Source: Sipunculus nudus (lineage: Eukaryota; Annelida; Sipuncula; Golfingiida; Sipunculidae). From it: a stretch of 64,000 nt of DNA. Made by a program: the position numbers and the translations under genes. The DNA lies in the NCBI GenBank assembly GCA_026874595.1, contig CM049320.1, positions 24,838,214-24,902,213 on the forward strand, given 5' to 3'. Under the pieces are notes generated by a model. It was given only the letters and a program-made list of their open reading frames with translations. It did not search any database and had not been told where the DNA came from. This document shows, one piece after another, positions 15,660-63,095 of the stretch. Within the stretch, counting starts at the first letter, position 1. Every line of letters begins with the position of its first letter.

Positions 15660-18600
15660 TTTCCACATGTGATGAATATATATATATAGGTGAGTGTGTG
15701 TGTGTGTGCAATATTTCCACAACTCATGCTAGTGCATTACTATTACTTAATTACCAATTTACTGCAACATAAACTTTAGTAGGTGAGCTGACAAAAGTTA
15801 TCAAGCATGTTAACCTAATCAAGGCTGAGTTAATCTTGGGGGTACAGAAGTGTGAAGAAGCCATGCTAGTCAATCATGTAACAAGCTTGTAACATGTTAC
15901 TGCACCCTGAGAGGTCCATCAGAGTTGGATTGGTAAATATGTATCAATGAACCTTATTTCTTAACCATCAATGGACTTTTTCAGTGTAACTGATATATCT
16001 GATTATCTGTTTACCTATCACTATGTATATGTCACAGGACAAACTCCGATCCAGTAGAATCGTCGATCTTACTAGGACAAAGTCCGATCAGACTTTCTAC
16101 TAGGAGAAACTCCGATCAGACTTTCTACTAGTAGAATTGGCGATTCTACAAGGACAAACTCAGATCATAGCCTCTACTAGGACAAACTCTGATCATAGCC
16201 TCCACTAGGACAAACTCCGATCAACCAGAGACCACAACATAATTAGACTTTCTACTAGTAGAATCAGTGATTCTACTAGGACAAGCTCCGATCGTGGTCT
16301 CTACTAGGACAAACTCCAATCATATATAAATGTACTAGTTGGGTCAGAGCTTCTACTAGGGAAAACTCTGAATGTAGTCTCTACTAGGACAAACTTACCA
16401 TAATGGTCTAATTTCTGAAACCTGAGATTATGAATGAATTAAACACAGTAATATGGTAACCAAATGTTTTATTTATTTATTATACAAAATATGACTTTCT
16501 AAAAGACTAGAGTATATCATGATAGTTTTATACAATATACAGGACAAGGGTTGTTTATTGGTTTTTAATATGGGGTTAAACACTGGTATATGGTATTGGT
16601 TGACATGTTAGGTTTTTTTTTGTAAAACCATTATATTTATTCATTGTTTTATGTACTATACTTCTAGAATTCTTGTTATTACCCTGTATTGTATATGATT
16701 GCTCCTTGCAAAGTGCCACCCTGAATGTCAAAACAGATTTTGAGCTTTGAGGAAGTTGATATAACCTTAGGACTGATTTTTTTATGATTGACTTGCACTT
16801 AACCGAGGCAACTGTATTTCTGCGAGTGAGTCTTTTGAAAAAGTTCTGTATGAAAATACACACAATCTGTATAAATGGCTTATTAATTGATAAACATAAG
16901 TACTGTCCCATGTATATATTGCATTTTTCTCTTTTATTTTAAGAAATAAGTAATACCTATGTTCAGGAATTGTAGATAACAGTTTGTGCTAATTTGTGCT
17001 TGTGCTTTTATTTGTATTTTTTATCACATAAACTTGTATGTTCTATATGAAACCTACATTCTGTATCAGTGGCTATTTCATTGATTAACATAAGTAATGT
17101 TGTATGTATATATTGCAATTTTTCTCTGTGATTTTAGGACAGGATAAATGAAATATTTTAGATCTATCCGTAAATTAAGGAATTTTTCATATATACAAGT
17201 AGATAAACAGTTTGTGCTTATATGTGCTTGTGCTTTTATTTGTATTTTTTAGAATATGAACTTGTATATATTGTACATAAATAAAGGATTTGTATTTCTG
17301 AGAATCAAAGTTCTATTTGAAAATACCTACATTCTGTATCAGTGGTTTAATTGATAAACATAAGTACAGGTAGATGTATATATTGCATTTTTTTGCTGTG
17401 AATTTAAGACAGGATGTGAATGAAATATTTTCGATCAATATTCAGGAATTTTACATATACACAAGTAGATAAACAGTTTGTGCTTACATGTGCTTGTGCT
17501 TATCTTTGTAATTTTTTTATCAAATAAAATTGTATGAATATATTTGAATGAAACATTAAGATGTATGTCTGTGACTTGTATATATAATCGTAGGATATTG
17601 TGTTTTATCATATATTTTATTCATTTTTAGCTCAGCTGACTATAAGTCATCTGAGCTATAGTCGTGGTCCGTTGTCCATCGTCTGTCTGTCCGTCCGTCC
17701 GTAGATGTGGCACATTTTGAAACCGTAAGACCTAGGAATCCAAAATTCGGCATAGTGTTAGATGTCCCCAAGATCTCCTACCAAGCCGAAAACTGGGTCT
17801 TTGCAACTTTGTTCCTTTGAGAAATTAAGGAAAAACCTCAATTTTTTATTAAAAACCTATTTTCACACTTCAGGACTGCCTAATATCAAAACCACTCATC
17901 TGTTTTTCTTCATATTTACCATAAATAATCCTCTATATAGTTTCTATGTACATGCCAGAAAGTAGGTCTGTATTATATAATTTAAAAAAGTTATGGGCCC
18001 AAACATAATGCACTTTGTAAATAATCAGGGAAAAAATTTGATCACTTAACATAAAAATTGTTAAAGCTAAGCACTTTTTCTCTAGATATATTACTTTTAT
18101 TAATCAAATTTAAATTGTATACCCAAAATTAGATCAAAATCTTTTAAAATATTAGCAAAAATAAAAAATTTTAAATTTTGCCCAACTTTGACCATGGCAC
18201 GCTTTATTCCTGTAACTGCTGTGGATTTAATTTTCAAAGCATGTTTATTTTTTAGCATTTCAACTGTTAACACCAAAAATTTGAAATCAGTTGATCAAAA
18301 ACTGTAGATTTTATTCAAGTTTTCGAGCACCATGTCACATATTGTATACATAAAGCTAGTGTTATGCAGTTTGCTAGAGCTCAGCTCCTGAGCTTACTTT
18401 AAGTTCCTTATATTTGGCATACAGTTAGTTGTCTCCAAAATCCCCTATCATGCCAAGAATTTGGTCACTAGGACTTAATTCCTTTAAGATATTAATGAAA
18501 AACTCATTTTTCCATTAAAAACCCATTGTTACACTTTAAGACTGCCTAATATCAAAACCACTGATCTGACTTTGATCATATATAATATACATATTTTTCT

Positions 18601-21600
18601 ATACATTCACTATGCATGTGCCAGAAATGATGTCAGTATTGCATTTAAGTAATAGGCCCAAACATAATGCACTTGTTAAAAAATCAAGAAATAAATTTAC
18701 TCATCTAAGATGAGAATTGCTGAAGCTGGAGACTTTTTTCAGGAATATAACTTTATTTAATCAAGATTCAATTGTTTACCCAAAATTAGATCTGATTTTT
18801 GCAAATTTTCCAAGTTATTAGCTTAATAAAAAAATCAATACCTTAAATTTTGTCCAACTTTGGCAATGGCACGTTTTTTTCCCTGTAAGCCCTGTTGATT
18901 TAATTTTCACAGCATATATACATAAGGATTTAATTTTTTTAAATTTGAAATTTCAAAGAAATTGATCGGAAAGAATAGCTTTTATTCAAGTTTTCATACA
19001 CCATGTCAAGTGTTGTTTACATCTAGCCCACCTAGTAGTACAGCCTTCACTTGCATTATGTAACCCACCCCAGGCAGCTTGACATGGCTCAGCTTGGCCA
19101 CTACTAGCAGGCTTCCCCTCTGCCCTGCTCCCCTCCCCCCCAGATGGTGCATTAACTAGATGAATGTTATAATTTTCTGTATTTCATTTTATTCTTGGCT
19201 ATGCAATGACACATTTTAGATTTTGTATTTACCACCAGGGTTAACTTACAATGATTAAAGTGCACATTTAATTGTGTCCAAAAACTTCACCAGGTGTGGA
19301 ATTGACTATTAATTCCAGTAATAAATTATAGCTTAGATTGTAATTAGCATAATGATATTGTTTGTCCCTCATTCAACCAACAGTGTGTATATTTGAATAC
19401 TTTATTTGAAAAGATGTTTTTATTTACCATATTTACTGAATCTTTTATTTTATTTCAGTGAATAAGATTAAGCATGTACTGAAAACTCCAATGTGCAAAA
19501 CTTGTTAATAGTGATTCAAGGAATAATCTTGTAGATGCCATGTTGTGGCATTATTTTCTTTTAAATTCAGTTTAAACATTTGTGATTTAAAAATAATAAA
19601 AATATATGTGTATGCATAATATGACCCAATATGAGCTACACTCTGGATATATAATGATTGCAACTTAGAATTCTAATATTTTAACTTGTATTTTCAGTTT
19701 TTTTAATACAAATTTATAAAACTTGTAAATAAAAAAATATTAATAAGATAAAAACTATTTTAATGGAAAAAGTGGATATGCTTAAATAATAGGCTTTTAT
19801 ATAAACTTAAATGCATAATTCCCTTGTAAGTGAAATAAAGGTATTAGTCCATTCTGTCCACTGGCCTGTCCATCTGTAAATTTTTTATATGCATCACAGT
19901 ATCTCAAAAACTTTTACTGTTTTCCTTCATGACAGTCTTGTCAGAGTATTAGTTTGCAATCATATATTTAGAACTTTACTATAACCAAGTAGGAGGGCCT
20001 CTTTCCTCTAAGCTTCTCATATGCTTATATAAATGAAAAACATTAAAATAGAATATTTTGCATTTGCAAAAATTTCAAACTTAAGCTGAGCGCCATGACC
20101 CATGGGTCCCTTGTTAATCTCAGGTTTCAGAAATTAGGTAAATTATGGTAAGTTTCTCCTTGTAGAGACTACAGTCGGAGTTTATCCTAGTAGAGACCAC
20201 GATCAGAGTTTGTCCCAGTAGAGACTACGATTGGAGTTTGTCCTAGTAGAATCGCCGATTCTACTTGTAGAAAGTCTAATTATGATGTGGTCTCTGGTTG
20301 ATCAGAGTTTGTCCTAGTAGAGGCTATGATTGGAGTTTGTCCTAGTAGAATCGCTGATCCTACTAGTAGAAAGTCTGATCGGAATTTCTCCTAGTAGAAA
20401 GTCTGATCAGACTTTGTCCTAGTAGAATCGACGATTCTACTGGATCGGAGTTTGTTCTGTGACATATATACATACAAACAAGCTTTTTTTTAAGGAAAAC
20501 AATATAAATTTTCATATCTTGGTTTTGTGATTTGAGTATGTTTGTTTAAATATATATATGTGTGTGTGTGTGTGAGAGAGAGAGATGATATTTCCTTTTA
20601 ATTCAGTCAGATATCTGCTGGTCTCTCCTTTTATAAGATTATTAGAGGTTTTTCCCAGTTTTTCCCCAATTCCCACTTTGAGAGGTTTTTCAAAGCCGGG
20701 AAAAACTTACAACCCTGGCCTCAACAGTGATGTAAAATTATGCTTCCCTGTATAATTTGCACCAAGGTTTTTCATTTCAATTTTATGAATTAATAAGGAA
20801 GATTATTTTTGGTGAAATACACTCTTGACAGTTTCCAGGCTTGATAATTTACCTACATTTTTTATTTCATATTTGTACATATTGTTACTATATATGATTT
20901 TAAATGATTTTCTTTGAATAACAGTGATACTGTGACCCTATAATGCAATAAAGTATGTTATTTCTCATATTTTTTTCAGATTTTTCACATTACTTGGAGT
21001 GTACCTTATTGGAGGGTTTATATACATGAGATTTGTGGTCCATGCACGGGGCATGAACCAGATACCAAACTGGAGTTTCTGGCAAGATTTTGGCAACTTA
21101 CAAGCTGTGAGTGAATGACTCTTTATTCAAACCTATTTGTGATAGGAGACTGCCTTACAGGGTTCAGCATTGTAGAAGGTCTTGTCGAGTTCATAACAGG
21201 TTAAAATATGACATGACAGGATGGCCTGTAACAATTAATAGGGGCCTTGAATCATCATGATACAAACTATTGCTGTAAATACAGTTGCCATTTGTATTTG
21301 ATTGATGATACCTTTATTTTCGTTTGAACCCAGTCTTACAGAAAACTACCTAACAGAGTACTTTTTATTATAGTGCAGCACTATTGTTATTCAAAGCCTG
21401 CAGTCTTAATATACAGCTGCTGATGAATAATTAAAACTCAAGAACACGTGAATATACAAACTATTTGTATATAATTTATTCCATCACTATGGTAACTCGG
21501 CATTTCCATCCCTTGCACAACTCTGCTGTCATTCACACAGCCTGTGGCAGTTTTCTTCTGTATTAGGTCAGTAATTCAGCAAAAATGTAGGGGGAGTGAA

Positions 21601-45184: not shown

Positions 45185-45974
45185 CTTTACCTGCTAAATC
45201 AGGCTACACTTACTGAATGCAAAGTGTTAATCGCTGCAGTAGGTATCACTGGATCTCAGGAAAGTGTTCTTACGAGAGGCTATAAATGTAGCAATAATTT
45301 AATATTGCCATTTCACTTCCATTCCGGTGAGTTTTAGAGTGTCGTTAAAATATGGCTGGCGAATGATTCCCTATTCACTTATGAAATTCTATTGGAATTT
45401 AATTATACAATGTATTCTTGCTGGGGTTCCAAATGTCAAGTTTATCTTCATTTGTATCTGTGTTTTCGGATACGTTTCCTTTAAATTATTGTTTAGAAAG
45501 CATACCGGAATACCGGAAAGCCAAATTTGTGAAGAAATTTACAATTGGTTAATTGCAGGGATGCGAAAAAAAACATTCTTTTATTGGTCTGCATTCTAGC
45601 GATGATGCATTAGAAACACTGACAGAACACCTGTTTACCAATGTATTCAAGCTATACTCACCGCAAAGCAAGAGGACAATGTTCCTCCAGCAAAGTGAAG
45701 CTACTACATATTGAATATTTGCTTGCTTAAGAACAGGTAGAGTGGATTCCCGGTCCATCCTTGCTTTCTTCATGTATTCTTTTCTGCCTTTTTTATGAAT
45801 GCCTCTCTCCAGTTAATCATTCTGACAGTCGTGACCTTTCTGGAAAAGAAACTGTTCTAAAGTATGTATGAGTCACTATTCCGTACATTCACGGGTTGTA
45901 ATTTACTTCCTGGCCTCTTATTGTCCCAACACTTGTAAGTAGTATATCTTATTATCTATATCTTATTATTCCAG
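45185..45974 (+). promoter_or_regulatory. Upstream region, exon 1 end and 5' UTR intron of GT15 copy A
   Basis: This block recurs in front of copy D (54500-55416). A conserved donor gtgagttt sits at 45327 (copy D: 54631) and a conserved acceptor ends at 45974 (tattattccag; copy D: 55416, tttttgttccag). This points to a short non-coding first exon and an intron of about 650 bp before the single coding exon. A TATA-like tataaa at 45281 is not well conserved in copy D. Confidence 0.5.
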
Positions 45975-46015
45975 GAGCTAGGCCCAAATGTAATTCCCTC
46001 AACTGAAAGGCGAAA

Positions 46016-47032
46016 ATGATATTTAGCAGATCCACTGTGGCTTTTGTTGCTTTCGTATTTGTCATCTCAACATATCTTTTCCTGGTACATAAGGAAGTTT
46101 TTAGTGATCCCTCACAAAGCATGACGAAAATTGTGCTTTCAGTTGGACAAGCAAAAGAAGAAAGGAAACAATTAGTGTTGAAATGCCAGGAAAACAACAC
46201 AGAATGCACAAGGTTTTCCCAGATGATGAAAGCCTGGCCCCCTGATAAGCCGAGAGCTGTGATCTATGTTCTAACCAGAGTGGGTCGACAGAAACGCCTA
46301 ATAAACTTACTCCATACGGTTGATCAATACTTTACCAGGCAGTTCCCCTATCCAGTGATTATATTTCACTCACAAATGTTACGCAGTTCAATTCCTATTA
46401 TTAGAAATTCAACAAATTCTTCATTATTCTTTCAGGAAATTGAATTTGAACTTCCCGACTTTCTTTCCCCAAAAGAGCAATGGTTGAAAGAACACTGCAA
46501 ACGATCCCTCGGGTACAAGCATATGTGTCGTTTTCAATCCAAGTTAGTGACAGAGCAGCCGATCATTGAGCAGCTCGATTATATCTGGAGACTAGATGAT
46601 GACTCTAGCATTCGCAGCCCAGTTAAATATGATGTGTTTCGTTTCATGCGAGATAAAGAAATATATTATGGGTATATGTGCAAGTTTCCCAGCAACGCAG
46701 AATGTGTTTTTGGACTATGGAATGCAACGAGGAAATATATTAAAATGAATCATATCGAACCTAAGTTTTTCAACGAAATGACAGAAGGAATGAATTATTT
46801 CAATAATTTTGAAATCAGCAAAGTCAGCCTCAGGACGAGCCCAGAGTATAAAGATTACATCGATTACATCGACAGATTAGGGGGAATTTTCTATTATCGT
46901 TAGGGAGATGCTCCTATTAAGACCATCGGGGTATCCCTATTCGTCCCTGAAAACAAAACTCATAATTTTCTCAGCATTGGCTATGCTCATCGTGGATGTG
47001 TTAACAACCTGCCAAAGCATAAAAGCAACTAA
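46016..47032 (+). pseudogene. GT15 (KRE2/MNT1-type) mannosyltransferase-like copy A, one in-frame TAG
   Basis: The frame runs 339 codons including the final stop, with one interruption: TAG at 46901-46903 where copies C and E have TGG. The product resembles Golgi type II alpha-1,2-mannosyltransferases of family GT15, which add mannose from GDP-mannose. It has a signal anchor at about residues 8-27, then SWPPDKP-like AWPPDKPRAVIYVLTRVGRQ, HMCRFQSKLVTEQPIIEQLD, YIWRLDDDSS and NNFEISKVSL. After the stop the frame resumes with GDAPIKTIGVSLFVPENKT and IGYAHRG. The stop falls inside the RWGDAP motif, so the short product (295 aa) would lose family-conserved catalytic residues. It could be a very young pseudogene, a segregating null allele, or a sequencing error. 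Coding sequence is in one exon. Confidence 0.85.
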
Positions 47033-48257
47033 ACTTTCTTGAATTTACACAACTCTAATGTCGAATACATATTGCACGGTGAAATTCAGAGATCCCGTTT
47101 CCATTATGCAGGTTAGCTGAACTAGTTCACAACTGCATCGGGACTGTTTTTCTCAAAATGTAGGTCCAGTCTATACTAAAAGCTGCAGCTCTTGAACTAT
47201 TTAAGGCTAGGTATGGTAAATGTTGCACGGGAGACTAAACTACGATTTGTTCAATATAATAATATATATTTAAAAATGTTATGAAAATCTTCTTTGGTAA
47301 AATGAGGTGAAAAACGACATTTTGATTGTATGCTTGTTTGTACTTTAATCTGTCACCGGAGGTCATAGATGTCAAAATATGTTATAAGGGGAAAACATAC
47401 ATGACAATCAGACAGTGCATATATATTGTCATCTTAATGTAATATCCCGTGTCAAAAATATTCTACTGTCAAACAAGAGATGTACAGTCTTAGCTGTTTG
47501 TTCTGTGCATTACTTCTTTAATTTCCTAACAGTGAACAAATTAGGTTTAGGACGAGGCACTGATAAACGAAAGCTAACATATTTTAAGGAATGACATGAT
47601 TTTGATGTGACATAGTACAGTGACAATCCAAGAGGTTGAATGTTTTTTTAAGGGGTAATTACATGCTCATGCTCGGTTTCCAACTTTCCTCTTCCTGACC
47701 TTTTATTAATTGTATTATATATAAGTTATATACGAGAGAATACACATGATAATATCTGGAATAAACACACATATACACACATTTATATATGTGTCAGACT
47801 TTTCTGTGTATATTTTTGTGAATGCATCAGACCTTCGTCAGGTGGGCATGGGTTGAGAGGTGTTAAAATATGGCGGAATGTCAATGCGTAGAGTCCACAA
47901 TGCAAGAAACAGTGTATTTACGTTCTGATTGGATATTTAGTAAAATTCTAATCATAATGGCCTGTGTGAGCGTGGTACACAGCAGTCTGCATCGCTCCAC
48001 TAAGGAATTTCCGTGAAACCGACACCATCCACATTATGACGTCACGTCACGGGTCGCTATGTAAAAAAGGCGGACCACTGTGGTACAGCCCGCAATTCCC
48101 AATCGCAACGCCTATCCAAGTAGTCTTTCGAATGCCAAAATTGGTCCGATTAATCGGTCGAAGGTGTGCCGCGAGCCGGATACCAAACCCTACATCCTGT
48201 GTGAGGAATGGGGAGGTACGATTTTCCAGTGCTCTCTCCGGCCCGTGAGTTGACTAT

Positions 48258-48296
<39 letters not shown>

Positions 48297-48880
48297 ATTT
48301 TAGAGAGACTTTTCAGTTCCTGTGGATACTTAGTCGCCGAGTAGCTTTTCCCCTACCCCAAACCTACTCTTGGGTTCATAAATTTAAGAAATGGGACGAG
48401 AGTTTTAAGGTTTTATTTCAAATTCATGAATTTTCAATTTCGGTTGAAAGGCTTGGAATGACCAATTATGGTGTTAAGTATTTTATGTATGTCTAACATC
48501 AGCGCCCCAACAAGAAAATAAAATTCAAATACTTTATTATTCAATGTAGTTATGTTCTTCTTTAATTTTGATATTGGTGTGGTTTAGTCACACTTTATAC
48601 ATTAATTCTCAAAATATTCACCCGATCACGTCAGGGTTAAAATTACTGTTTCTTGGTGAATTAAGACATGATGAAGAGATTGAAATACATACTGAGAGCA
48701 CTGCTTTGTGTGATATTTTTCGTTTCGTTATGTGTAATATCAATATGGAGAATAGTTTGTTTTTCAACTATTATCTTTTTATGGAGTTTCATCCACTCCG
48801 CCACATTAGTAATGGAATGAGAAATTTCACTCTGAGAAGTAATATAATCTAAGTAGCAGGCCAGAAAAGGTGATACAAAT
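47033..48880. other. Non-coding DNA after GT15 copy A
   Basis: No gene is supported. It holds a TA/TG microsatellite at 48256-48297. The phrase gaatgcatcagaccttcgtc near 47820 resembles tails seen near some retroelements, but I cannot assign it. Confidence 0.45.
48256..48297. repeat. (TA)n(TG)n microsatellite
   Basis: About 8 TA followed by about 12 TG dinucleotides. Confidence 0.92.
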
Positions 48881-50300
48881 ATTCGGTATTTTCTATAAGA
48901 AAATGAAATATACATAGCCGTAAATTTATATATGGTGGAGATGGATAAGAAAATTAAAGATATAGACAAAACAATTAATATATGGCGGATTAGGAGTCTG
49001 ACCCTAGAAGGACGAAACCAAATAGGCAAAACTTTTATTATCGGTAGATTTAAATATCAGCTTGCTAATCTACCATATTATATGAAACTAAAAGTCTGAG
49101 AAATTGCCACGTTGTCTTTATTTAAAGAAAAGGAAAAAAAGCGGGGGGGGGGGGGGGGGGCTGAAATTCGCCACATTTAGACATCTCGGGTAGTATGCAT
49201 TTAAAGATATTTGTATACCGGAAGATAGATTTTTGAAGAAATTATGTAAGAAATTAAAACGGATATCACATAATAGAGAAATACTTTTATTGGGTAATGT
49301 TGGTCAGGTGATGAGAGCTGCTTTCTTCAAAGAAAATGGATTGTGAATCAAATAATATGGATGAATCGAAATGTTAAGATTTATAACAAATGATTTGTTG
49401 GAAAGAATCCATAACAATTGGGACCATGATCACTAATCTTTTAATGATAATAACCGTGTTAAGCATTCTGAATATTGGAAAGAACGAGGCGTGAATCTGA
49501 GATTATTCTTTCTGTGGTATTCATAAATGCCATTAGTTCTATCAAAGAAATTAGAAATTGAAAATTAATATTCGAATAAACCCCATACTTTATGGTAAAC
49601 GCTTTGCTTTACATCAAACAACTTTAAAACAGGTGTATCAGAGTATCAAGAATGCAATGTACTTGCCATTTTGTAAACTGCTACAATTTATTAATTGCTC
49701 AACACAGTGGATTATAATTGGTCAAGGGTGTACCTGTTATCTAAAAGTATGTTTCAAGATGTTAAAACACAGGATTTTCAGCATAAAGTTCTGCAGAATA
49801 TTTATTTTTAATAATTACGGGTTTCAGAAAAGGAAATTAGTAACAAATAAAAAATCCAATTTTTGTATCACTAATCGAGAAAATACAGTGCATTTATTTT
49901 TGGAATGTGAATTGATAAAAGTATTTTGATTAAACATAGAAATATGATCGGTTGAAAAGAAGATAATTTTTACTTTGATAAATCAGGAGTTGTTTTACGA
50001 GAGTGAATCGAAGAATTTTGGAAGAATTATACATTCATTATCGGTAAAAAGTATATTAATAGATACAGGTATAACAAAAGTGGTCTAACGATAACAGGAT
50101 TTGAACACTATTTAAAGTATTACATGTAGATTGAATAAATTATAGAAAAAAGACATTAAAAAACACAAGATTTAATTGAGAAGAGGGCAGTGTTAATATG
50201 TTTAATACATTGAGATATTATTTGATATTATTTGTAAGAGAAATGGTTTGATTTTGTTCTGCGTATTAATTTTTGAATAAAACTTGTAAAAAAACTAAGT
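48880..50300 (+). mobile_element. Decayed LINE remnant (C-terminal part of a reverse-transcriptase protein)
   Basis: At 48964 the plus strand reads DKTINIWRIRSLTLEGRNQI then GKTFIIGRF, the familiar stretch that follows the RT domain in non-LTR retrotransposons. Further on, 49558-49929 ends with NFCITNRENTVHLFLECELI, matching the post-RT zinc-finger region that normally reads C-x2-C...H-x4-C. Both are broken by stops and frameshifts. The 3' end is near ttgaataaaacttgtaaaaa at about 50270. The clade is not resolvable. Confidence 0.6.
49143..49160 (+). repeat. Poly-G run (18 G)
   Basis: Uninterrupted guanine run within the LINE remnant; potential G-quadruplex. Confidence 0.95.
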
Positions 50301-51012
50301 AGTAGTTAAACATGTCACACTTTTGCTATACCTGAATTATATGTTGGACTTGCTATTCTATGATCATAGGAGTTTACAGCTTTCCGGGAAGAATACTTTT
50401 TCTTTACAATTTCAGATTTAACTAAACACTACCTTTGTGTGCAGAGTTATTTGATCTGAACACCAAGTGTCAGTCGCTGCCAAATGGCGTCGCTAGTTTC
50501 GTGAAATGTATCGCTAAATAATTGTTCGAGTTTTCAATCACACAAGAAATTGATATTGCGGATGTTCACTGCCTTCAAATGAGTTTATGAGGGTCATTTA
50601 AATGCAGTAAATGAGGTTTGCAGATTGATGTGAAATTATATCTGAGGGCAATGACCCCATTAATTTGTATTTGAGTTTAATATGCAATGCGTATATTTAC
50701 CCATTTCTCGAATCCCAGGCATATATATAGGAGAATTAGATCCCTAAAATGCATGTTATTGTTTGGAATGGAAAACAAACATATGTAATATTAGATTTTG
50801 TCAGACTAAATGTACCACGGGTAAATGCGAATATAGGCTACCTCCTTTTTAACTGGTATGGTTATGTTTCAGGAATACCATTATTATATCAATCTTTAAC
50901 ATTTCCGCCTACATCAAATTAAGTATTCTGTGTAAAATATAGTTTGATTTTCTCTTTTTAGAATACAGAGAAATTCTGCTCGAGACGGCCCCGACGCGTT
51001 ACAAACAGAACC

Positions 51013-52024
51013 ATGGTGATTAGGCCATGCCACTCCGCTTTGATCGTCACTGCTTTTGTTTGTGTATCCACAATGTATGTTTTCCTAGTATATAATGCAG
51101 AAATTCTTGAATTCTCCCAAGGTCTTATGAAAATTGAGTTTTCACTCGGAATAAAAGAAAGAAAATTACGGTCACTATGCCAAGAGAAGAACGCAGACTG
51201 CATTAGGTTTTTCCACATGATGAAATCATGGCCTCCGGACAAACCGAAAGGTGCAATCTACCTCCTTACCAGAGCTGGCCGACCGTCTCGCCTTAAAATC
51301 TTACTCTGGGTACTTGAGCAGCATTTTACCAGCTGATGGGACTATCCAATTATAATATTTAACACAAAACTGCTGCGAAGCTCAATTCCTGGGATCAGAA
51401 ATTCAACTAATTCTTCATTATTCTTTCAGGAAGTTAATTTCAAAATCCCTGAATTTGTTCCTCCAGTATTTGAGTGGCCAAAATGGCCACACTGCAAAAA
51501 CCAATTGGATACAAACATATATATGTCGCTTTCATTCCAAGTTAGTTACAGAGCAGCCGGTGATTGGACAGCTCGATTATATCTGGAGACTTGATGACGA
51601 TTCCAGTGTTCGTTACCCTGTAGAATTTGATGTGTTTTGCTTCATGCGCGATAAAGATATATATTACGGATACATTTGTAAATATCCTGACATCTCAAAT
51701 TGTGTGTTTGGGTTATGGAATGCAACCAAGAAATACATCGAAATGAGACACATCAAACCACAGTTCTTCTACCAAATGCCGGATAGAATGACATGCGTTA
51801 ATAACTTTGAAATTAGTAAAGTCAGTCTTTGGACAAGCTCCGAGTACATAGATTTCATGGATTACCTTGACAGGTTAGGTGGCATATTCTACTATCGTTG
51901 GGGAGATGCTCCAATAAAGACGATTGCAGTTTCCCTCTTCGTCCCTGAAAACAAAACTCAAGTTTTTCGTCGCATAGGCTATTTTCACCGTGGGTATGTC
52001 AATAAGCCACCGCCAAAGCATTGA
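51013..52024 (+). pseudogene. GT15-like mannosyltransferase copy C, stop plus frameshift
   Basis: It starts MVIRPCHSALIVTAFVCVST, a type II signal anchor, preceded by an acceptor tctctttttag at 50961. Two lesions are visible. A TGA at 51334-51336 stands where copy E has Arg (FIS-R-FHYP). A net +1 insertion lies near 51525, in the segment matching YKHMCRF; the second half reads in the shifted frame (YICRFHSKLVTEQPVIGQLD, WRLDDDSS, NNFEISKVSLW, YRWGDAPIKTI, IGYFHRG) to a TGA at 52024. The total of 1012 nt is one more than a multiple of three, as expected. Key motifs are otherwise preserved, so inactivation looks recent. Confidence 0.87.
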
Positions 52025-53980
52025 TGGACCTCAGATTAACAATATACTAATATTTATAATCACTGATTGGACTCCGTTTAAAAAAGTAGCACAATTTTAA
52101 TATAAATTAACTGAACTTGTCCCGACTGTAATAAAACCTTTTTCGGGATTGCCAAAGCAATAAATGAGATTAACAATTTGCTAACATTTATACACATTAA
52201 TTAAACTGCGTAAATACAGAAAAAATTACATATCAATTTGATGATTTCATCTAATTCTAACTTAAACATTTTGTTGACCTTTTAAGAGAAAGGGCTATTG
52301 TGAATTACGTTTGCATATCGCTAAATACAAGCATATGATCCTATCATGCCCTAAAACAAAATTGTCATATTTGTAACGCGTTTCGCTTGATCTCGTTTAC
52401 GCTCCATCACACCAAAACTAACTGAATTGGAAACTTTGAACACTTTGGATAAGTGCCCATTATGATTAGTTCTAAAGTAAACCATATTCATATGCCAACT
52501 TGCTTTTTTTTCAAAATTTATTTTATCCTCCTGTGGTTGGTATGAATAGATTCTAAGAGCTACTGTAAACTGTTTATTCACTAGAGTACAGTTTGAAACA
52601 TACTAATAAAAATCTTAAGCGGCGTTGCATGTACATAATTTGTGTGCACATTAAATGTCATCACAATGATTGCGGTCATTACCAGCAGCGTCTATAATTG
52701 ATGCATAGTAATGAACATGCTTTTCCCTTATGTAGAATAAAAACTGTATTAAAAATCAACTGCAAAATGACAGATAAAGCTTTGATACATGGGACTAGGC
52801 ATGTATTCTACCTCTATTTTACTGAAGGACAGCAGTTGTTCTATTATAGTCTGAGTGTATCTGCTTTTATTTTTACTTAAAATCAGCTAAGCCTAAGCGA
52901 CGGCCCTTTATACTTCTACTGGTTTTCTTGTCTGGTCGCCAGGGATATCCTGAGGAAATTGTCTTTAAAATCCTAAAGTACGTCACAGTGACCTATACTC
53001 TACACTTTATAATGTAACTCACAATTTTGAGCACTGTAAAAGTAAGGCTTCCCTAAGCGTGCAATGTTGTTAACTTGTTAATCATATGTTCTGCGTTAAA
53101 TCATAATATGGCAATAATGTGCCTCTTCTACTCTTTAATTCTATCAGCATTCAAAGTTTAAAAAAACAAACCGAGATTTTCTGCGTTGTGGGTCAATTGC
53201 AAGGACTGCATGTAGACATTATGTAATATCTGTTCTAAATATCCCAGTATCCCTAAATATCCCAATATTGACCGTATTACCGATAAATGCTTGTAAGCTG
53301 CACGTGACCTTACGTGTGATGACTTCTTTTCTACAAGCCAAAATGTTAATTTCCGTCCAACCCAGATAAACAGGAAAAATAATAATTTAGTTTCTTATCA
53401 TAGTAAACTATTCAATAATTGAAGGCACCCACATTACTGGTAATTAACACAATTTTGCCTAAACGGAGCTTTCATTTTCGTTTATCATGAATGTTTACGA
53501 CTTCAAGTTCTACTAATAATTTAAGCACTGCAGGGTGATGAGCAGAACAGGATTCTGTAGCTGGAATATGAGGAAAATTCAGATTGCGCCGAAAAATGGT
53601 GAATCAGTATAGTGAATCAAAATAACCTTTTCAACCACTACCTTTTGAAATAGGTTTTCATGTTAAGGGGACGAACAGTTCCTCGGAGTCAAATTGAAAA
53701 TAATTATTTTCAAAGTAGCAGCTTTGTGGAATTTCTCTTATTTGAGTATTTGGTTTCTGTGTTTGCTTATCACGTTATTGTCTGTAAAAAATATTGATCA
53801 CATGACTTATTAATAAACTATGGATTGCGCCGCCCATACTGATCTATTCCATTGATCCAAAAATAATTTTATTTCCTGAATATCATGCAGATTTACACTG
53901 TAGGTGCCACCACTTATGCTGTACTGCAGCTGTTTCTTTTTCCAGCTGTATATCATTTTTAATATATCATTATATCATAT
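52025..53980. other. Intergenic DNA between GT15 copies C and D
   Basis: No gene or known repeat is supported. The stretch is AT-rich with no long frame. Confidence 0.45.
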
Positions 53981-53989
53981 CCACTACCT

Positions 53990-54115
53990 TTCACAGTTTA
54001 ATCAAATGAAAGACCGTTAGTCTTTTGTTGAAAATGACAGACTTCAGCGGTCAGTATTGTGCTAAGCATGGCACAAATAGTAGCCATATGAAGCAGCTAC
54101 ACTTAACACACAGAC
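53990..54115 (-). repeat. Inverted copy of 44970-45110
   Basis: ttgctgaagt-type matching is clear on the complement: agctgcttcatatggctact, tgccatgcttagcacaatac and acggtctttcatttg match 44992-45090. It shows that the upstream flanks of GT15 copies A and D were duplicated with local inversion. Confidence 0.65.
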
Positions 54116-54499
54116 AGGCTGTGATAAGCTCAAACAAATAACCCTTCATCGGGCTATATTTTGTGTGTAGCCTTTTAACATTGTGTCAGATTCAGTTGAC
54201 CTTTACGGTTGAGCACCAGATCAGACCGTGTGCAATAAACTCTCGCGGATATATTTCTCATTGTATTAACAATTCTTTGAAGAGGGATGGCGGTAAAACA
54301 AATTCATTAAACATATACAGTACTACGTTTTTTAAGACTGCATTTTATTTAAAATAAAAAAACTTTTTTTACAATATTTGAATGTTTACTAAACGTAAAT
54401 GTATTTATTTTATATACACATTGTCTTCATTTGCGCTTCACAATAAAAGCTTAAAAACACATTAAAACAATCAGGGCAAAATGACCATATCACCTTTCT

Positions 54500-55416
54500 C
54501 CATCAGGCTACACCAGCTGAATGCCAAGTGTAAATCGTTGCCAATAGGTGTCACTGGCTCTCAAGATGGTATTGTTGTTACGCCAGGCTATAGATGCAGT
54601 AATGATATATAAATATTCTCTAACTTTCAGGTGAGTTTAAGAGTGTTGTTAAAATACGGCAAATGATGCGCTATTTCCTAATGATATTCAATTGGAATTA
54701 AATTAAACTATGCATTCATGCTGAAGTTAAACATGCCCCGTTAACTTTGTTTGACTCTGTGTTTTCGGGTACTTTCCATTCAATTAATTTAGAAAACATA
54801 AAGGTATACAGGAACGTTTAATTAGTTAATTGCATTTATACCAATAAATCATTCTTTTATTGGTCTGTATGCTAGCGATGATTCTTCAGGAAACACTGAC
54901 AGACCATCTGTTACACATTATCAGGGTATTCATGCCATACTCATCGCTCAATATAATGGCACAGTTTCTCCAGCAAAGTGAGGCATCTACATATTGATTT
55001 TTGCTTGCATGAGAACAGGTAGAGTGGATTCCCGGTCCTTCCTTATTCCTTCCATCATTGATTTTATAATGCTTTTTTTTTATGAATGCCTCTCTCGTGC
55101 TAATCATTCTGAGAGTCAAGGGCTTCCTGGAAAAGAAACTGTTCTACAGTATGTTTTATTCACTATTCTGTACTGAAAACAGGTTTATCTATCTATCTTA
55201 CCAGTCCCCTTTTCACTTTAATACAATTTTATTAAAACTAATAGAATTTCATAGACTTGTCTCTCCGTTTCTCCCCCACTTGAAATACATAAAACTTGAA
55301 ATAACCACGGAACACTTATGATTAACGTATATTCAAAGAGTTGTAATTTACTTTCTGGCTTTTTATTGTTCTAACACCTATAATATATTGATGCATTCTC
55401 TATCTTTTTGTTCCAG
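54500..55416 (+). promoter_or_regulatory. Upstream region and 5' UTR intron of GT15 copy D
   Basis: Direct duplicate of 45185-45974. Shared phrases include aacactgacagaccatctgt, aggtagagtggattcccggt and tatgaatgcctctctc. The donor is at 54631 and the acceptor ends at 55416. Confidence 0.6.
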
Positions 55417-55451
55417 GAACTAGGCCCAAGTGTAATTCCCTCAGTTGAAAT

Positions 55452-55841
55452 ATGAAAATATTTAGCAGATCCACTGTGGTCTTTGCGCTTTCGTATGTAT
55501 CATCTTAACATATCTTTTCCTGACACAAAAGGAAGATTTAAGTGATCCCTCACAAAGTATGACGGAAATTGTGCTTTCTCTTGGACAAGAAAAAGAAGAA
55601 AGGAAAACAATGTGTTGAAATGCCACGAAAACAACACAGAAAGTATAAGGTTTTTCCAGATGATGAAATCCTGGCCACCTGATAAGCCAAGAGCTGTGAT
55701 CTATGTCCTAAACAGAGTGGATCGACAGAAACGCTTTCTAAACTTACTCCATACGGTTGATCAATATTTTGCCAGGCAGTTCCGCAATCCAGTAATTATA
55801 TTTCACTCACAAATGTTACGAAGTTCAATTCCTACGATTAA
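55452..55841 (+). pseudogene. GT15-like copy D, truncated and frameshifted
   Basis: Very close to copy A (for example tttagcagatccactgtggt). It has a one-base deletion near 55487, leading to an early TAA, and another near 55608. From 55612 the frame reads SWPPDKPRAVIYVLNRVDRQ and ARQFRNPVIIFHSQMLRSSI. Homology stops exactly at 55841, where an inverted AGCT element begins (aacaagggacccatgggtca). The remaining two-thirds of the gene do not reappear after that element. Confidence 0.88.
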
Positions 55842-57763
55842 CAAGGGACCCATGGGTCACGGCGCTCAGTTAAAATATTAGAATTGTTGCAAAAGTTGCA
55901 ATCATTATATATACAGAGTAAAAAGCATTTGGTCATATTATGCATACACATATATTTTATTATTTTTAAATCATAAATGTTTAAACTAATTTTAAAAGAA
56001 AATAATGCCACAACATGGCATCTACAAGAATATTCTCCACATTGGAGTTTTCAGGACATGCTTAATTTTATTCACCAAAATAAAATAAAAGTAAATTTGA
56101 TAAAATAAAACATCTTTTCAAATAAAGTATACACACTGTTGGTTGAATGAGGGACAAACAATATCATTGTGCTAATTACTATCCCAGTTTTAATTAATTA
56201 CTGGAATTAATAGTCAATTTCACACCTGGTGAAGTTTTTACTCTTCTGAAGTAAGGAATTACTTATCTCATGAACATCCACACTTTCACAGCAATACACC
56301 ACTTTGTGGACACAATTAAATGTACACTTTAATCATTGTAACCCTGGTGGTTCAATACAAAATCTAAAACGTAGCATGTCCAAGAATAAAATAAAATAAT
56401 AACATTCATCTAGTTTATGCACCAGCTGGACGGGGGATGAGTGCAGGGCAGAGGGGAAGCCTGCTAGTAGTGGCCAAGCTGGGCCAGGGTAAGCTGCCTG
56501 GGGTGGGTTACATAATGCAAGTGAAGGCTGTACTACTAGGTGGGCTAGATGTAAACAACACTTGACATGGTGTATGAAAACATGAAAAAAAGCTATTCAA
56601 TCCTATCAATTTCTTTTGAAAGTTCAGACTTTAAAAGATTAAATCCTTATGCATATATGCTGGGAAAATTAAATCAACAGTGCCAAAGTTGGACAAAATT
56701 TAAGGTATTGATTTTTTATTTATGCTAATAACTTGAAAAATTTGCAAAATTCAGATCTAATTTTGGGTAAACAATTGAATCTTGATTAAATAAAGTTATA
56801 TTCCTGAAAAAAGGTCTCTAGGTTCAGCAATTCTCATGTTAGGTGAGTAAATATATTTCCTGATTTTTTAAAAAATTGTATTATGTTTTGGCCCATAACT
56901 TCAAAATAATACCCAATACTGACCTAATTTTTGGTATGTTAATAGAAAATGTATAAAAGAATGTGAATACTAAATACCATCAAAAACAGATCAGTGGTTT
57001 TGATATTAGGCAGCCTTGAAGTGTAACAATGGCTTTTTTTCTTCCTTAATATCTCGAAGGAACAAAGTCCTAATGACCCAATTTTCGGTATGGTAGGAGA
57101 TTTTGGGGACATCTAAAATAATGTCAACAGCCTGGGGAGCATAGAGATGTGCACTGAATGACCTACAGTCATCAAAGTGGACTGCTTGACAATGTAAGGG
57201 AATACAACAACAAAAATTCAATAACTAGTCTAATTTTGCAGCTTTTATATTCAAATTTCAGATTTTAACAGATTAAATCCTTATGTATACATGGTGTGAA
57301 AATTAAATCCACAGTACTTACAGGAAAAAAACGTGCCATGGCCAAAGTTGGGCAAAATTTAAGGTACCAATTTTATATTTTTGCCAATATTTAAAAAAAA
57401 ATTAACAAATTTTGATCTAATTTTTGGTATGCAATTAAATTTTGATTAATTAAAGTTGTATTACTGGAAAAAAGTCCCTACCTTTAACACTTTTGGTCTT
57501 AAGTGACCAAATATCTTCCTGATTTTTTTACAAAGTCCATTATGTTTGGGCCCATAACTTTTTTAAATTATATAATACTGACTTAATATCTGGCACGTAC
57601 ATAGGAACTATATAGAGGAATATTTATGGTAAATATGAAGAAAACCGGATGAGTGGTTTTAATATAAGGCAGTCCTGAAGTGTGAAAATAGATTTCTAAT
57701 AAAAAATTGAGGTTTTTCCTTAATATCTCAAAGGAACGAAGTCCTATTGACCCAAATTTTTGC
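55840..57763 (-). mobile_element. AGCT element copy 7, inverted and missing its left end
   Basis: Reads as the complement of copies 1-3, from the right terminus (AACAAGG then GACCCATGGGTC) through the shared poly-C/poly-G block near 56431 to ctattgacccaaatttttg. The left hairpin and the short-repeat run are absent. It interrupts GT15 copy D. Confidence 0.85.
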
Positions 57764-58188
57764 TTATATATAAAATTTATTATGTTATAACATAGATGTA
57801 TATCTCTCTATATAATATATAATCGGAAGATCATGGGTTCGATTCCCTTGGCAGTGAACCTACTTTTTTGGGTATTCAAATCCATCCCTATATACAATGA
57901 ACCAGCATGGCTATTTTTACTCTATATAATATATGCCGCACACCAAACAAGACCACAAGTTCTCCCTGCTGCATGCAAAGTCGCTGGTTCCTGTAAAAGT
58001 ATGCATATACACAGAGGGGTTATAGATCTGTCGTTAGGTGTATCAGCTTAGTGGGTAAATCGGAAGATCATGGGTTCGATTCGCATCGGCAGTGAACTGA
58101 CTTTTCTGTGTATTCTAGTTCGATCTCTGTATACACTGAACCAGCATCACTATTCAAACATCACTTTCTTTCTTTCTCTCTCTCTCTA

Positions 58189-58258
<70 letters not shown>

Positions 58259-58555
58259 TATATTTCTGTCACCATCAAATCTCCTGAGCCAATACATCCA
58301 TGATTGATATAATTGGAAGACATACTGATCATGCAACTTATGTGCTATTTTCTGCAGAAAATGCATACATTTTCAGGAAAACACATCATGCGAAAAAAAA
58401 AACACTGACTATAGCCTTGCAACTACAACCCTTTCTCATAGGCAGTCAGACCTGGGGTCGAACCCAAGTTGCCAACGGACAGCAAAAATGAAATTTTTAT
58501 GGTGACGAATGATTTGTGTAACAGTCTATTGTGTAACAAACCTAGAATGAATGCA

Positions 58556-58598
<43 letters not shown>

Positions 58599-58760
58599 TT
58601 TTACGCAGTGGAATCATATGTGTGTGTCTGTACGTTTTACGCAGTGGAATCAGATATGGACACTCAATGTACTTCTTTCCTGATATATTGTTAAAAAGGA
58701 TTAGTAGCAAAGATGGATAAATTATACTGGAATGCCGTAAAGAAATCTTATAAATACGAC
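57764..58760. repeat. Microsatellites and SINE-like duplicates
   Basis: Two related units contain cggaagatcatgggttcgat, at 57823 and 58060, each followed by ggcagtgaac and accagcat phrases. The B-box-like gggttcgattc suggests a tRNA-derived SINE. (TC)n(TA)n occupies about 58158-58260. A (TA)(TG) tract is at 58556-58596, followed by a doubled gtacgttttacgcagtggaa. Confidence 0.5.
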
Positions 58761-59888
58761 ACTCGGTTAGCTGGGAATGTGTATTTTAAAGAACCTTCGT
58801 TGTATGCCCGTGGCATAAAAACGTAGCAGAGGGAGGAAAGACATGATGTGTGTTACATCATCATTATTATTCAAGATGTTGAAATAATGCAAATGCACGA
58901 GTAAAGTGACTGCATATACATTTGGTCACTGGAAGGTAGGTCACGTTTGTTCCCTCATTGCAGCCATTCTTTCTCCTTTGAAATTTCCTTCAATTTTAAT
59001 TTCCTAATGCTTTACTCACTTTTCTTTTTTTTATTTTCTCTGCCCTGGTCTTTCACACCACGTGGCCTTGTATAAGTACTTGGTCATGTGGTTAAAGAAA
59101 ATGACAGTTTCAACTGGAATTGTTCAAAATACCTCGGTCACGCATAGATAACGGTCACAGCGATAGACAGATTTACTTTTCTGTCTCAAATAACGACTGG
59201 CCCAGGTTTATGTAAAACTAATAAACAACTCTATCTTCAGAAAGATTGTCCGTTTGTCCCTATCAGTATGAGTCGAACATTTTCGTTTGTAGTTACAATG
59301 ATTGCTTTACAATCCTTTTTAAAAATCCTTACATCCTAATTTAATAATAAGTACATTATTTCTTGTTGAATATTTTTTTTTAAATTTCATACTGTAACTA
59401 CATGATATTAAAATAAGACCTTGGCATAGTTATTACATACACACGAAATTTTTTATATAATTTCATGGAAAGAACTTACCTAGTATTTATAAAACAGACT
59501 GCCCAAATGATAAGCAATTTGCTCAGCTCAGTATTTAAAGTTTATTTTACTTAAGCTTCCGCACTTACACCCGCCACGTCATCCCTGATTAATTTATTAA
59601 TCAATTAAAAGAAATTTGTAGATAATGAAATGTTGCATGTCAAGACACGAGCTAAGTTCCTCATCCGATGAGATTGAATAAAAAAATATTCTGTCTGCAG
59701 ATTATATATTCCAAGACAGCACCGAAAATTCAAGAATTTGTCGAAGATTATTGATTTTCTTTTCCCAGTTTCAAATTTCCATTCTCTGTCCGTCCACTCC
59801 AATCTGACTCCGGTCTAACACGTATTCATATGTTTTATATTTCATAATTCAAAGCACCTCTACTCAAGACGAGTGACTAAGTTAAGGA
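58761..59888. other. Region upstream of the intact GT15 gene
   Basis: No gene or clear repeat. It should contain the promoter of the gene at 59889. I cannot confidently place a 5' UTR intron acceptor; ttcataattcaaag ending at 59853 is a weak candidate. Confidence 0.4.
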
Positions 59889-60905
59889 ATGAAGATGAAC
59901 TTTCCAAAATCCATAATCGCTGTAGTAATAGTTACCTCGATAGGCATCATCTCTTCATATATTTTGTTTGCATATAACGATGAATTTTTTGAGCTCACAC
60001 ACGGCATAATGAAGATTGTATTTTCTCCGGAACAAAACGTGGATGGACAACAGCTGATGTCGAAATGTAATAGAAAGAACACAGAATGCATGAGGTTTTC
60101 CGAAATGATGAAATCCTGGCCTCCGGACAAACCAAAGGCTGCTATTTATGTTTTAACCAGGGTGGGAAGACAGAAGCGCCTTATAAACATGCTGGAGTCA
60201 GTTGATCAACATTTTATCAGCCGCTTCCACTATCCAGTGATAATATTTCACTCAATCATATTCCGGGGTTTAATTCCTAGTATAAGAAATGCTACAAATT
60301 TACCAATATTCTTTCAGGAAATTGAATTTAAATTACCGAACTTTCTTCCTCCAAAAGATCGTTGGCCCACACCGCACTGCATACACACTATAGGATACAG
60401 GCACATGTGTCGTTTTCAGTCAAGGTTAGTAACAGAACAGCCGATCATTGAGCAGCTCGATTATATATGGAGACTAGATGATGACTCTGATATCAGCAGC
60501 CGAATTGAATACGATGTATTTCGATTCATGCGAGATAAAGATATATATTACGGATACATGTGCATACGTCTTGACAACCCTGGGTGTGTGTATGGATTAT
60601 GGAAAGCAGCAAAGAAATACATTGAAATGAAACAAATCAAACCACATTTCTTCTACGAAATGAAGGAAAGAATGACGTACTTTAACAATTTTGAAATCAG
60701 TAAAGTCAGCCTTTGGAGGAGCCCCGAATACAAAGATTACATCGATTACATCGACAGACTCGGAGGAATATTCTACCATCGTTGGGGAGACGCTCCTATT
60801 AAGACGATTGGCGTAACTCTCTTCGTCCCTAAGAACAAGACATATCATTTTGGGGACATCGGCTATATTCATCACAGCTGTGTTAATAAACCGTCAAAGC
60901 AGTAA
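59889..60905 (+). CDS. GT15 (KRE2/MNT1-type) mannosyltransferase-like protein, intact copy E, 338 aa
   Basis: A single uninterrupted coding exon. Predicted Golgi type II membrane enzyme: a short cytoplasmic N-terminus, a signal anchor at residues 8-29 (SIIAVVIVTSIGIISSYILF), a stem, then a GT15-type catalytic domain from about 74. Visible motifs: YVLTRVGRQKRLINMLESVD (88-107), HMCRFQSRLVTEQPIIEQLD (172-191), WRLDDDS (194-200, where fungal enzymes have WR-V-E-P), NNFEISKVSLW (266-276), RWGDAPIKTI (298-307) and IGYIHH (324-329). By alignment from memory, Asp301 in RWGDAP and a His in IGYIHH match residues used for the active site and metal in yeast Kre2/Mnt1. N-glycosylation sequons: Asn134 and Asn316. 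Family members transfer alpha-mannose from GDP-mannose; substrate here is unknown. It is the only copy in this cluster with no lesion, so probably the functional one. Confidence 0.9.
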   Translation: MKMNFPKSIIAVVIVTSIGIISSYILFAYNDEFFELTHGIMKIVFSPEQNVDGQQLMSKCNRKNTECMRFSEMMKSWPPDKPKAAIYVLTRVGRQKRLINMLESVDQHFISRFHYPVIIFHSIIFRGLIPSIRNATNLPIFFQEIEFKLPNFLPPKDRWPTPHCIHTIGYRHMCRFQSRLVTEQPIIEQLDYIWRLDDDSDISSRIEYDVFRFMRDKDIYYGYMCIRLDNPGCVYGLWKAAKKYIEMKQIKPHFFYEMKERMTYFNNFEISKVSLWRSPEYKDYIDYIDRLGGIFYHRWGDAPIKTIGVTLFVPKNKTYHFGDIGYIHHSCVNKPSKQ

Positions 60906-62409
60906 GGAATTATCCATCTATTATAGACACACTTTTCACTGAAGGATTTCAACACATTATGACTCCATAAAAATACTTTCCAAAAGCCGATTCGCTGTCT
61001 GCAAATTATGTGAAATAGAGGCAACTTCAATAGTAATTACTGAACTTAATTTAATTCTGAAAGTATGTCTAACCTAGTGTTGCGTTCCTGTAATGCATTG
61101 TTACTTGACGTAGAGAAATTTTATAATGCCGAATGAGGGAGAAGACAAATGCTATGACATCTAATCTAGAAAGATTTTAAGTATATATAATAAGTTTCAC
61201 GCATATAATAACTTGTAAAATGGGCATAACTGAAAAACAAGGGAATGGTTACAGAATAGTATACATATATTATATAATTCGATAATGTAAATGATATTCC
61301 TAGGCTTTACAGTAGTGTGTATATGAGTATTTTTTTCAATGAACAAGATAAACCTGCATATAAGGAGTTCCGAGAAACATGAATAATTGATAAACTGTTT
61401 AACAGACACCCGGTGGTTTATACCAAGTAAACGTGTTCATACATATGTACTATATGTTTCAATTACTTTTCAACACAATATTTTACATCTATAGCCTGAG
61501 GGTTTCATCACAGAGGAATGAATAATATCTGAATGTCCAGATGTTCATGTTTTTTAAATACATTTGCACATGCTGGGATATCTTTTCTGGTAATCACTCC
61601 TTCATGCGTATGATTTGAACAAAATTATGTACCCATAATCCATTCCTGTTGTATTAAGGTAATAGTTTATTAATACTATTTGTAGGAAGAGACTTTCGTG
61701 TGCGCTACTGCCTTACTCGGAAGCCCTATATGTTTTCAGTCGTTCCTTCATGATATTCATTCAGGTTTCTATCTACTTGTCATTTTACACCTCAGGGAAT
61801 GACATTCACCATGGGCTTCCATAGCCTCTAGTTTTCCTGTTGCTTGCATAACGCATTTATTAGCATATATTAGCATATAAAAATAGCACTACGTAACATA
61901 ACCACCTGTGTTTGAGCTATTAATTACGTATAATTATTGTTATTTGATAACAAATGGGTCCCCTGTCCTTATCACAAGCACGTTTTCTACATCTAAATGT
62001 GTTTTTCCATTACCCGTATATTTACTGTGATTCCAATACTGTTATTGTTATTTTACAGTGGTAGGATGGCCTCTCCCAGTGTTCTTTTTGTAAACAGATA
62101 TATGTGTGTATATTAATATATTCCTATATGTGTGTATATTTATATATTCCTTATGTGTCACGGAGTCTATTTCACATGCATACTCCCAGGCCCTTAACCT
62201 AGTGTAGTGATCAATAAGGCTATAGCGTCTCGTAATGTAGGTGAAATGCACCCTGGTTACGAAGAAACAGGGTGTTTGGAGAATATACATTATTTCTTTC
62301 TCTTTCATATGTTGAACTTTCGCGGAGCAGGAGATCTAGCATCTATATTTCCATAGACCCCTAACTCGAAGACACATTCACTCAGCCGAAAGAGAAACTG
62401 ATCGTTTTG
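60906..62409. other. Intergenic DNA after GT15 copy E
   Basis: Presumably starts with the 3' UTR. No further gene, RNA or recognisable repeat apart from small AT-rich patches and a doubled tatgtgtgtatatt phrase near 62101-62150. Confidence 0.45.
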
Positions 62410-63095
62410 AAAACCGCTTTGTCGTTATGTGTCAACTCAATATATCATTTTCTGGCATATCATAAGGAAATTACTGATCACTCAAAGATATGACGAAAAT
62501 TGTACTTTCACTTGGATAAGAAAAAGAGGGCAGAAAACAATTCCTGTCAAATGCCAGATACAACACAATGCATCAGGTATTTCAATATGACGAAATACTG
62601 CCCTCCCCTCCCCCAAACAAAACAGTTCATTAGGTATTTCCAGATGATAAATTCCTGCCCCCCCCCCCCACACACACACAGACAAATGCCTGCAGAATGC
62701 ATTTGGTATTTCCAGATGATGCAATCCTGTCCCCCAAAACGTCACAGAATGCATCAGGTATTTCCAGATGATGTAATCCTGCCCCCCCCCCCCCGAAAAA
62801 TCATGAGGAATTTACTGATCACTCGAAGATATGACGAAATTGTACCTTCACTTGGATAAGAAAAAGAGGAAGGAAAACAATTTCTGTCAAATGCCAGAAA
62901 CTACATAATTTATTAGATATTTCGTGATGACGAAATATTGGCCCCAAAAACAACATAGAATGCATTAGGTATTTACAGAAGATGAAGTCCTGGCCCCAAA
63001 ACAAAACAGAATGCATTAGATATTTCAAGATGATGAAATCCTGGCCCCAAAACATGACATAATGCATTAGGTATTTCTAGATGATGAAACATCAG
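62410..63095 (+). pseudogene. GT15-like copy F, decayed into a 51-bp coding-derived tandem repeat
   Basis: 62415-62565 is recognisable as the start of a GT15 copy (tgtcaactcaatatatcatt, gacgaaaattgtactttcac, tcaaatgccag). What follows is eight copies of the codons for roughly NTECIRYFQMMKSWPP, starting near 62567, 62619, 62690, 62744, 62905, 62954, 63007 and 63058. Spacing is mostly 49-54 bp, matching 17 codons. Between copies four and five the upstream segment from ggaatttactgatcactcga to gtcaaatgccag is itself repeated, so there are two super-repeats. Poly-C runs separate some units. No catalytic domain follows. Confidence 0.8.

Follow-up and report, generated by a model that had tools for sequence, protein, structure and literature searches.

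GT15 is best known as a family of fungal and yeast mannan enzymes, and the locus considered here raises the question of what a cluster of such genes does in an animal genome and where it came from. The window, a stretch of 64,000 nucleotides from Sipunculus nudus (G000:C15:24838214-24902213; contig labels such as C1, C8 and C15, and locus labels from L001 onward, are names used in this analysis), belongs to an assembly of 1,426,538,692 bases in 153 contigs. It contains one intact GT15 gene, copy E, and four broken copies, A, C, D and F. Copy E and its kin probably form a large animal GT15 subfamily of type II, Golgi-type enzymes that transfer a hexose onto secreted glycans, a reading to which a probability of about 0.62 is assigned. 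Judged from sequence, these enzymes look like a separate branch of the family with an altered sugar-donor pocket rather than a recent gift from fungi.

GT15 copies in the window

An earlier note on this DNA had described a tandem cluster of fungal-type GT15 genes, and the tandem arrangement on the plus strand at 46-63 kb was confirmed. PF01793 was the sole Pfam family matched by the three longest frames of the window, all on that strand and in that interval (cut-off 25 bits). The scores were far above chance: 143.9 bits for copy E (E 1e-41), 97.4 bits for the copy A frame (E 1.4e-27) and 113.7 bits for the 3' half of copy C (E 1.5e-32). The proposed placement of copy E in GT15 therefore stands. 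The five copies are listed below.

46013..47017, plus strand: copy A, full-length GT15 pseudogene (tblastn with copy E, 64% identity)
51037..52024, plus strand: copy C, GT15 pseudogene (tblastn with copy E, match 51037-52009, and frames)
55609..55845, plus strand: copy D, GT15 fragment (tblastn; a second tblastn gave 55618-55839)
59889-60905, plus strand: copy E, intact single-exon GT15 gene of 338 amino acids (open frame, PF01793)
62422..63089, plus strand: copy F, decayed remnant of the GT15 stem region (tblastn, with short matches at 62.7-63.1 kb, and blastn)

Copy E has an N-terminal hydrophobic anchor at about residues 9-27 and a catalytic domain at about residues 78-338. Six hallmarks (YVLTR, CRF-x-S, WRLDDDS, NNFEI, RWGDAP and IGY-x-H) had been attributed to all five copies; copy E alone carries all six in one open frame, copies A and C come close, and the claim fails for D and F. 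The open frame of copy A (46007-46903) is ended by an in-frame TAG at 46901-46903 that replaces the W of RWGDAP, the other five hallmarks being present, and this copy has R where 31/31 intact proteins have W276. Copy C reads YLLTR in place of YVLTR; a stop near 51334 interrupts it, its frame shifts somewhere within 51495-51518, and a C-terminal frame of 222 amino acids is still open. Copy D aligns with residues 57-135 of copy E only, and its sole hallmark trace is YVLNR; its upstream DNA (55326-55834) resembles 45882-46397 of copy A at 86% (blastn, window against itself). Copy F has none of the listed hallmarks, is internally duplicated (62459-62773 and 62800-63086) and is no useful gene copy. 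Single-exon coding, also claimed for the cluster, applies to copy E and to the 31 intact genes described below, whereas A, C, D and F are broken. Across the initial 46 kb of the window, tblastn with copy E returned no GT15 match.

A genome-wide family

When the assembly was searched, copy E matched 69 stretches (tblastn) and PF01793 gave 53 matches, all above the cut-off. The profile matched nothing in 14 control genomes, all of them bacteria or archaea and so uninformative on animals. The C15 cluster consists of two arms 61 kb apart. One lies at 24.770-24.823 Mb and comprises 16 stretches (15 minus-strand); the other lies in the window, with 5 stretches (four copies) on the plus strand. Fifty loci were analysed, 30 from the copy E search and 20 from a further search; eight more PF01793 places were second cuts of loci already included and were left out. 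A locus was called intact if its best match lay within an intron-free frame of 320 residues or more, running from Met to stop. Of the 50 loci, 31 are intact by this definition, which puts the family at 31 or more intact genes, with frames of 322-392 residues (15 on C8, 6 on C15, 5 on C1, 3 on C14 and one each on C6 and C17), and the remaining 19 are broken or partial. All 31 intact proteins match PF01793 at E<=0.001 (best 3.1e-48), and none of the 31 coding frames contains an intron. The animal expansion suggested from the window alone is thus seen across the genome.

Bacterial contigs are present in the assembly, and the GT15 genes might on that account be contamination from an organism in or on the animal. 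However, the listed matches are all confined to six contigs of chromosome size (61-111 Mb), where they form multi-copy clusters that include decayed copies, and none was listed on a bacterial contig, which makes contamination extremely unlikely.

Close pairs share long flanks (3985 bp at 94% for L004/L009, 3382 bp at 98% for L042/L043 and 2969 bp at 98% for L006/L008), so duplication of DNA, and not a series of retropositions, made such copies; the flank shared by L013, L015 and L017 is only 1.3-1.4 kb. Ratios of nonsynonymous to synonymous substitution (dN/dS) were calculated by the Nei-Gojobori method (NG86) for pairs of at least 60% identity, lower pairs being dropped, and saturation affects some of the dS values, which are above 2. 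The ratios were 0.08-0.53 across pairs, with the exception of L006/L008 (0.86 at dS 0.013); those for copy E were 0.23 against L002, 0.21 against L003 and 0.17 against L004. Old members under purifying selection, fresh duplicates and pseudogenes together look like birth-and-death evolution. The family would be old in the lineage, single-exon, and evolving by DNA-level duplication, divergence and decay.

Active site and sugar donor

The animal proteins have a GT-A fold of the Kre2 kind. In Kre2 numbering, Tyr220 and Asp361 are kept in 31/31 animal rows and Glu329, the proposed nucleophile, in 30/31. The position of the metal ligand E247 is Asp in 31/31, a conservative change that gives DxD, and the position of H388 is His in 31/31. 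The catalytic domain would bind Mn2+ through H328, a C-terminal histidine, together with D197, an aspartate of DxD, and would transfer a hexose, most likely mannose from guanosine diphosphate (GDP)-mannose, with retention, onto secreted glycans. The role of Tyr220 is covered in sections of PMC11077754, which also argue against a double-displacement mechanism. All 31 animal proteins have a hydrophobic N-terminal anchor, and they may act in the Golgi.

Three solved fungal enzymes, Kre2p/Mnt1p and Ktr4p of yeast and CmsA/Ktr4 of Aspergillus fumigatus (PDB 1s4n, 5a07 and 7boo), share 26-30% identity with the animal enzyme. They show EPD, EPN and EPK where the animal proteins have DxD, and EPD/EPx occurs in 0/31 animal rows; WRLDDDS, put forward as a fungal GT15 hallmark, is therefore not one. 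Within the yeast Kre2 family, DxD is kept by no member according to the portions consulted of Possner 2015 (PMC4546622). The animal enzymes differ further in having the acceptor His and Trp replaced, in the cysteine pair C164/C233, seen in animal rows only and a putative disulfide, and in forming intronless multigene clusters.

Several features of the active site weigh against a mannosyltransferase role for the whole family. The Asn-Asp pair of the fungal enzymes, which reads guanine according to extracts of PMC4546622 and PMC11077754, is found in 0/31 animal rows. In 18/31, including the group to which the window belongs, S, T or A stands in place of the acidic base-reading residue, and this loss makes GDP-mannose doubtful as the donor for those 18. 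The equivalents of the acceptor residues H323 and W325 are altered in 31/31. In one otherwise intact frame, L004 (G000:C15:24774606-24775577), Glu329 is replaced by Ala (NNFAIS), and this gene is possibly a dead enzyme that is still kept.

The base-reading position divides the family by cluster. It is S in 6/6 rows of the C15 group and S, T or A in 12/12 rows of the C14/C1/C6/C17 group; it is acidic elsewhere, being E in 12/12 rows of the C8 group and in L014, and D or E in 38/38 viral rows. This pattern would be expected if the C15 and C14/C1/C6/C17 groups had changed donor, either using another nucleotide sugar or becoming non-catalytic. Such a change is tentatively judged somewhat unlikely, in that nearly all metal and catalytic residues are kept and dN/dS is low. 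Loss of the side chain may also be tolerated, because a main-chain contact of Val-141 in Ktr4p also reads guanine, as stated in part of PMC4546622. Mannose is the likely donor sugar for the subfamily as a whole, yet is uncertain for the window's own group. Because the animal genes have lost the guanine-reading residues, labelling them "glycolipid 2-alpha-mannosyltransferase" is unsafe.

Relatives on viral contigs and in prokaryotes

A scan of the viral_contigs collection with copy E alone gave 0 relatives among 3 pattern matches, a scan with an animal profile gave 13 loci out of 32, and a scan with a mixed profile gave 114 relatives out of 165, of which 80 were kept, representing 76 distinct loci. 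For prokaryotes, alignment A1 gave 0/29 relatives and the mixed alignment A2 gave 8/25, yielding eight loci (L072-L079). The archaeal loci are from a Methanoperedens metagenome-assembled genome (MAG), two further archaea and the isolate Natronomonas aquatica; the bacterial loci are from MAGs of Chlamydiia, Anaerolineales and two Verrucomicrobia.

The viral-contig relatives (L059-L071, L080-L154) resemble the animal enzymes in DxD and in a core of HMCRF, NFE and RWGD, and three that were tested score 152.8-156.3 bits against PF01793. Unlike the animal enzymes, they are only 31-37% identical to the animal query, lack an anchor (38/38) and stand in runs of sugar genes at L060 and L064. The archaeal and bacterial proteins (L072-L078) have the same core as the animal copies but are distant and also lack an anchor (7/7). 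Among the 79 distinct non-animal frames that reach 150 residues, a simple pattern found D-x-D in 77 and did not recover it in 2; D-x-D is present in 38/38 viral and 7/7 prokaryotic rows of the tree described below, the prokaryotes having DDD in 4/7 and DTD in 3/7.

Twelve GT15-bearing viral contigs were tested for Terminase_6N; four match at E<=0.001, three of these passing the cut-off, and on this basis the four look like tailed phages, the other 8/12 being unplaced. L060 and L064 each carry two GT15 genes, adjoining or close together, within the sugar-gene runs, and the L060 run includes a homologue of GDP-mannose 4,6-dehydratase (gmd E 2.6e-118; 395 bits, under the 415 cut-off). No GT15 was found in 50,697 phage records by tblastn with the single query L064, and three proteins tested against PHROGs and three GT15 proteins tested against NCBIfam had no match. 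The best viral fold match for copy E is a Megaviridae protein, BFVD A0A5J6VLB3 (22% identity, E 1.5e-13), possibly a GT15 relative in a giant virus.

Phylogeny and origin

A tree was built from 79 rows (31 animal, 3 fungal, 38 viral and 7 prokaryotic), with no root inferred. The viral rows were thinned to 38 from 72 distinct frames (at least 240 residues, less than 75% identity), and the prokaryotic fragment L079 was dropped. Animal rows come from this assembly only, and the fungal rows, Kre2 and two Ktr4, cannot stand for all fungi. A second tree of 75 rows was made with the four DDD prokaryotic rows removed.

Animals and fungi form clades with support of 100/98 and 100/100. The earlier note had raised transfer from fungi, for which the sole point is that GT15 is best known from them. 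Trees that nest the animals among the three fungal enzymes were rejected by the approximately unbiased (AU) test: with Kre2 in all 79 rows at p 1.1e-6, and in the 75 rows at p 1.6e-111 and 2.2e-11, the animals being placed either beside Kre2 on its own or beside the pair of Ktr4 rows. EPx and Asn-Asp are also missing from every animal row. A recent transfer from a fungus is accordingly very unlikely, although with just three fungal sequences the rejection does not extend to early-diverging fungi. The description "fungal-type" is not upheld either: the animal proteins are members of GT15 that fall outside the fungal Kre2/Mnt1 subfamily, by the absence of EPx and Asn-Asp and by their place in the tree relative to three fungal rows, and DxD relatives occur in viral contigs, archaea and bacteria.

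Deeper in the tree, animal plus fungal rows form one side of the best split among the 75 rows, a branch supported at 95/66. This weak grouping fits vertical descent, possibly from an opisthokont ancestor. Other results run counter to it. In the full tree the grouping requires the inclusion of L075, at 53/6. With all rows the AU test cannot separate animal plus fungal (p 0.409) from animal plus the four DDD prokaryotes (0.283) or animal plus three archaeal rows (0.207), so that the evidence on deep order is weak, and animal plus archaeal is still not rejected in the 75 rows (p 0.194). Three prokaryotic rows were flagged as long branches.

Entry from a non-fungal source, such as a prokaryote, a phage or an intron-poor protist, followed by expansion, would explain both the missing introns and DxD. 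The D-x-D shared with the viral and prokaryotic rows, the DDD of four of the latter and the failure to reject animal-prokaryote clades (AU p 0.19-0.28) agree with such an entry. On the other hand, the animals sit on a deep branch (0.38) that falls within no sampled prokaryotic or viral clade, and the animal-fungal split is best once the four prokaryotic rows are removed. DxD may moreover be the ancestral state, and an early retrocopy would also yield a single-exon form; non-fungal entry is considered unlikely. In the simplest history DxD was the original state, kept and expanded in the animal lineage, and fungi changed it to EPx. If animals, phages, archaea and bacteria all have DxD members, EPx is likely derived and the family probably predates fungi.

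Possible roles in the animal

The nucleotide-reading site of the three divergent groups is His-Ser, His-Glu and mostly Tyr-Ser/Thr. An animal-specific GT15 might predate the animal-fungal split and now serve as a multigene toolkit, with the three groups using different donors or acceptors to build lineage-specific surface or mucus glycans, perhaps with a bearing on the bacterial partners whose contigs this assembly contains; this is speculative and rather improbable. Animal database entries carry the name "KTR1-like", and a literature search for the phrase "mannosyltransferase KTR1-like" gave no paper. Literature searches also turned up no study of what an animal GT15 does. One GT15 is tabulated for the snail Achatina fulica in a segment of PMC10295696, and members of the family are studied as antifungal targets in the text seen of PMC11077754. 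Animal GT15 genes suggest that there are animal glycans still to be studied.

Other features of the window and assembly

A dispersed repeat begins about 25-30 bp past the end of copy D.

55868..57762, strand not set: dispersed repeat after copy D (blastn, window against itself)

The repeat belongs to a family of about 1.9 kb; it matches 13938-11981 at 94%, and pieces are also found at 7547-8954 and 17758-19686. In copy F, positions 62912-63089 form a tandem array with 3.5 copies of a 51-bp (17-codon) unit. Each unit encodes TECIRYFxMMKSWPxNK, 17 residues from the GT15 stem, and a GT15 coding piece has here become a minisatellite. Ten other open reading frames of the window gave nothing against Pfam but a sub-threshold zf-RVT at 49555-49926, and Rfam and tRNA scans of the window gave no match.

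Of the 11 COX1 matches in the assembly, none marked an animal mitochondrial contig; there was just a fragment of 51 positions on C5. Globin and ferritin pieces compared with the PDB did not point to a particular animal group, and no molluscan haemocyanin domain was matched, a result that does not prove it absent. Nine bacterial-type COX1 genes (L155-L163) were found on eight contigs (C60, C61, C62, C66, C72, C74, C75 and C89), with 3 to 18 differences from the first copy per approximately 575 residues and a guanine-plus-cytosine (GC) content of 0.38 in L155. On C89 two COX1 copies lie 2.04 Mb apart, and ferritin-like matches recur at similar spacing. These contigs look like multiple strains of one bacterium with a genome near 2 Mb, perhaps a symbiont. 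C123 (L164-L166) is a bacterial contig with a GC of about 0.52 and an apparent cbb3-type oxidase cluster, from a different bacterium than the COX1 contigs C60-C89.
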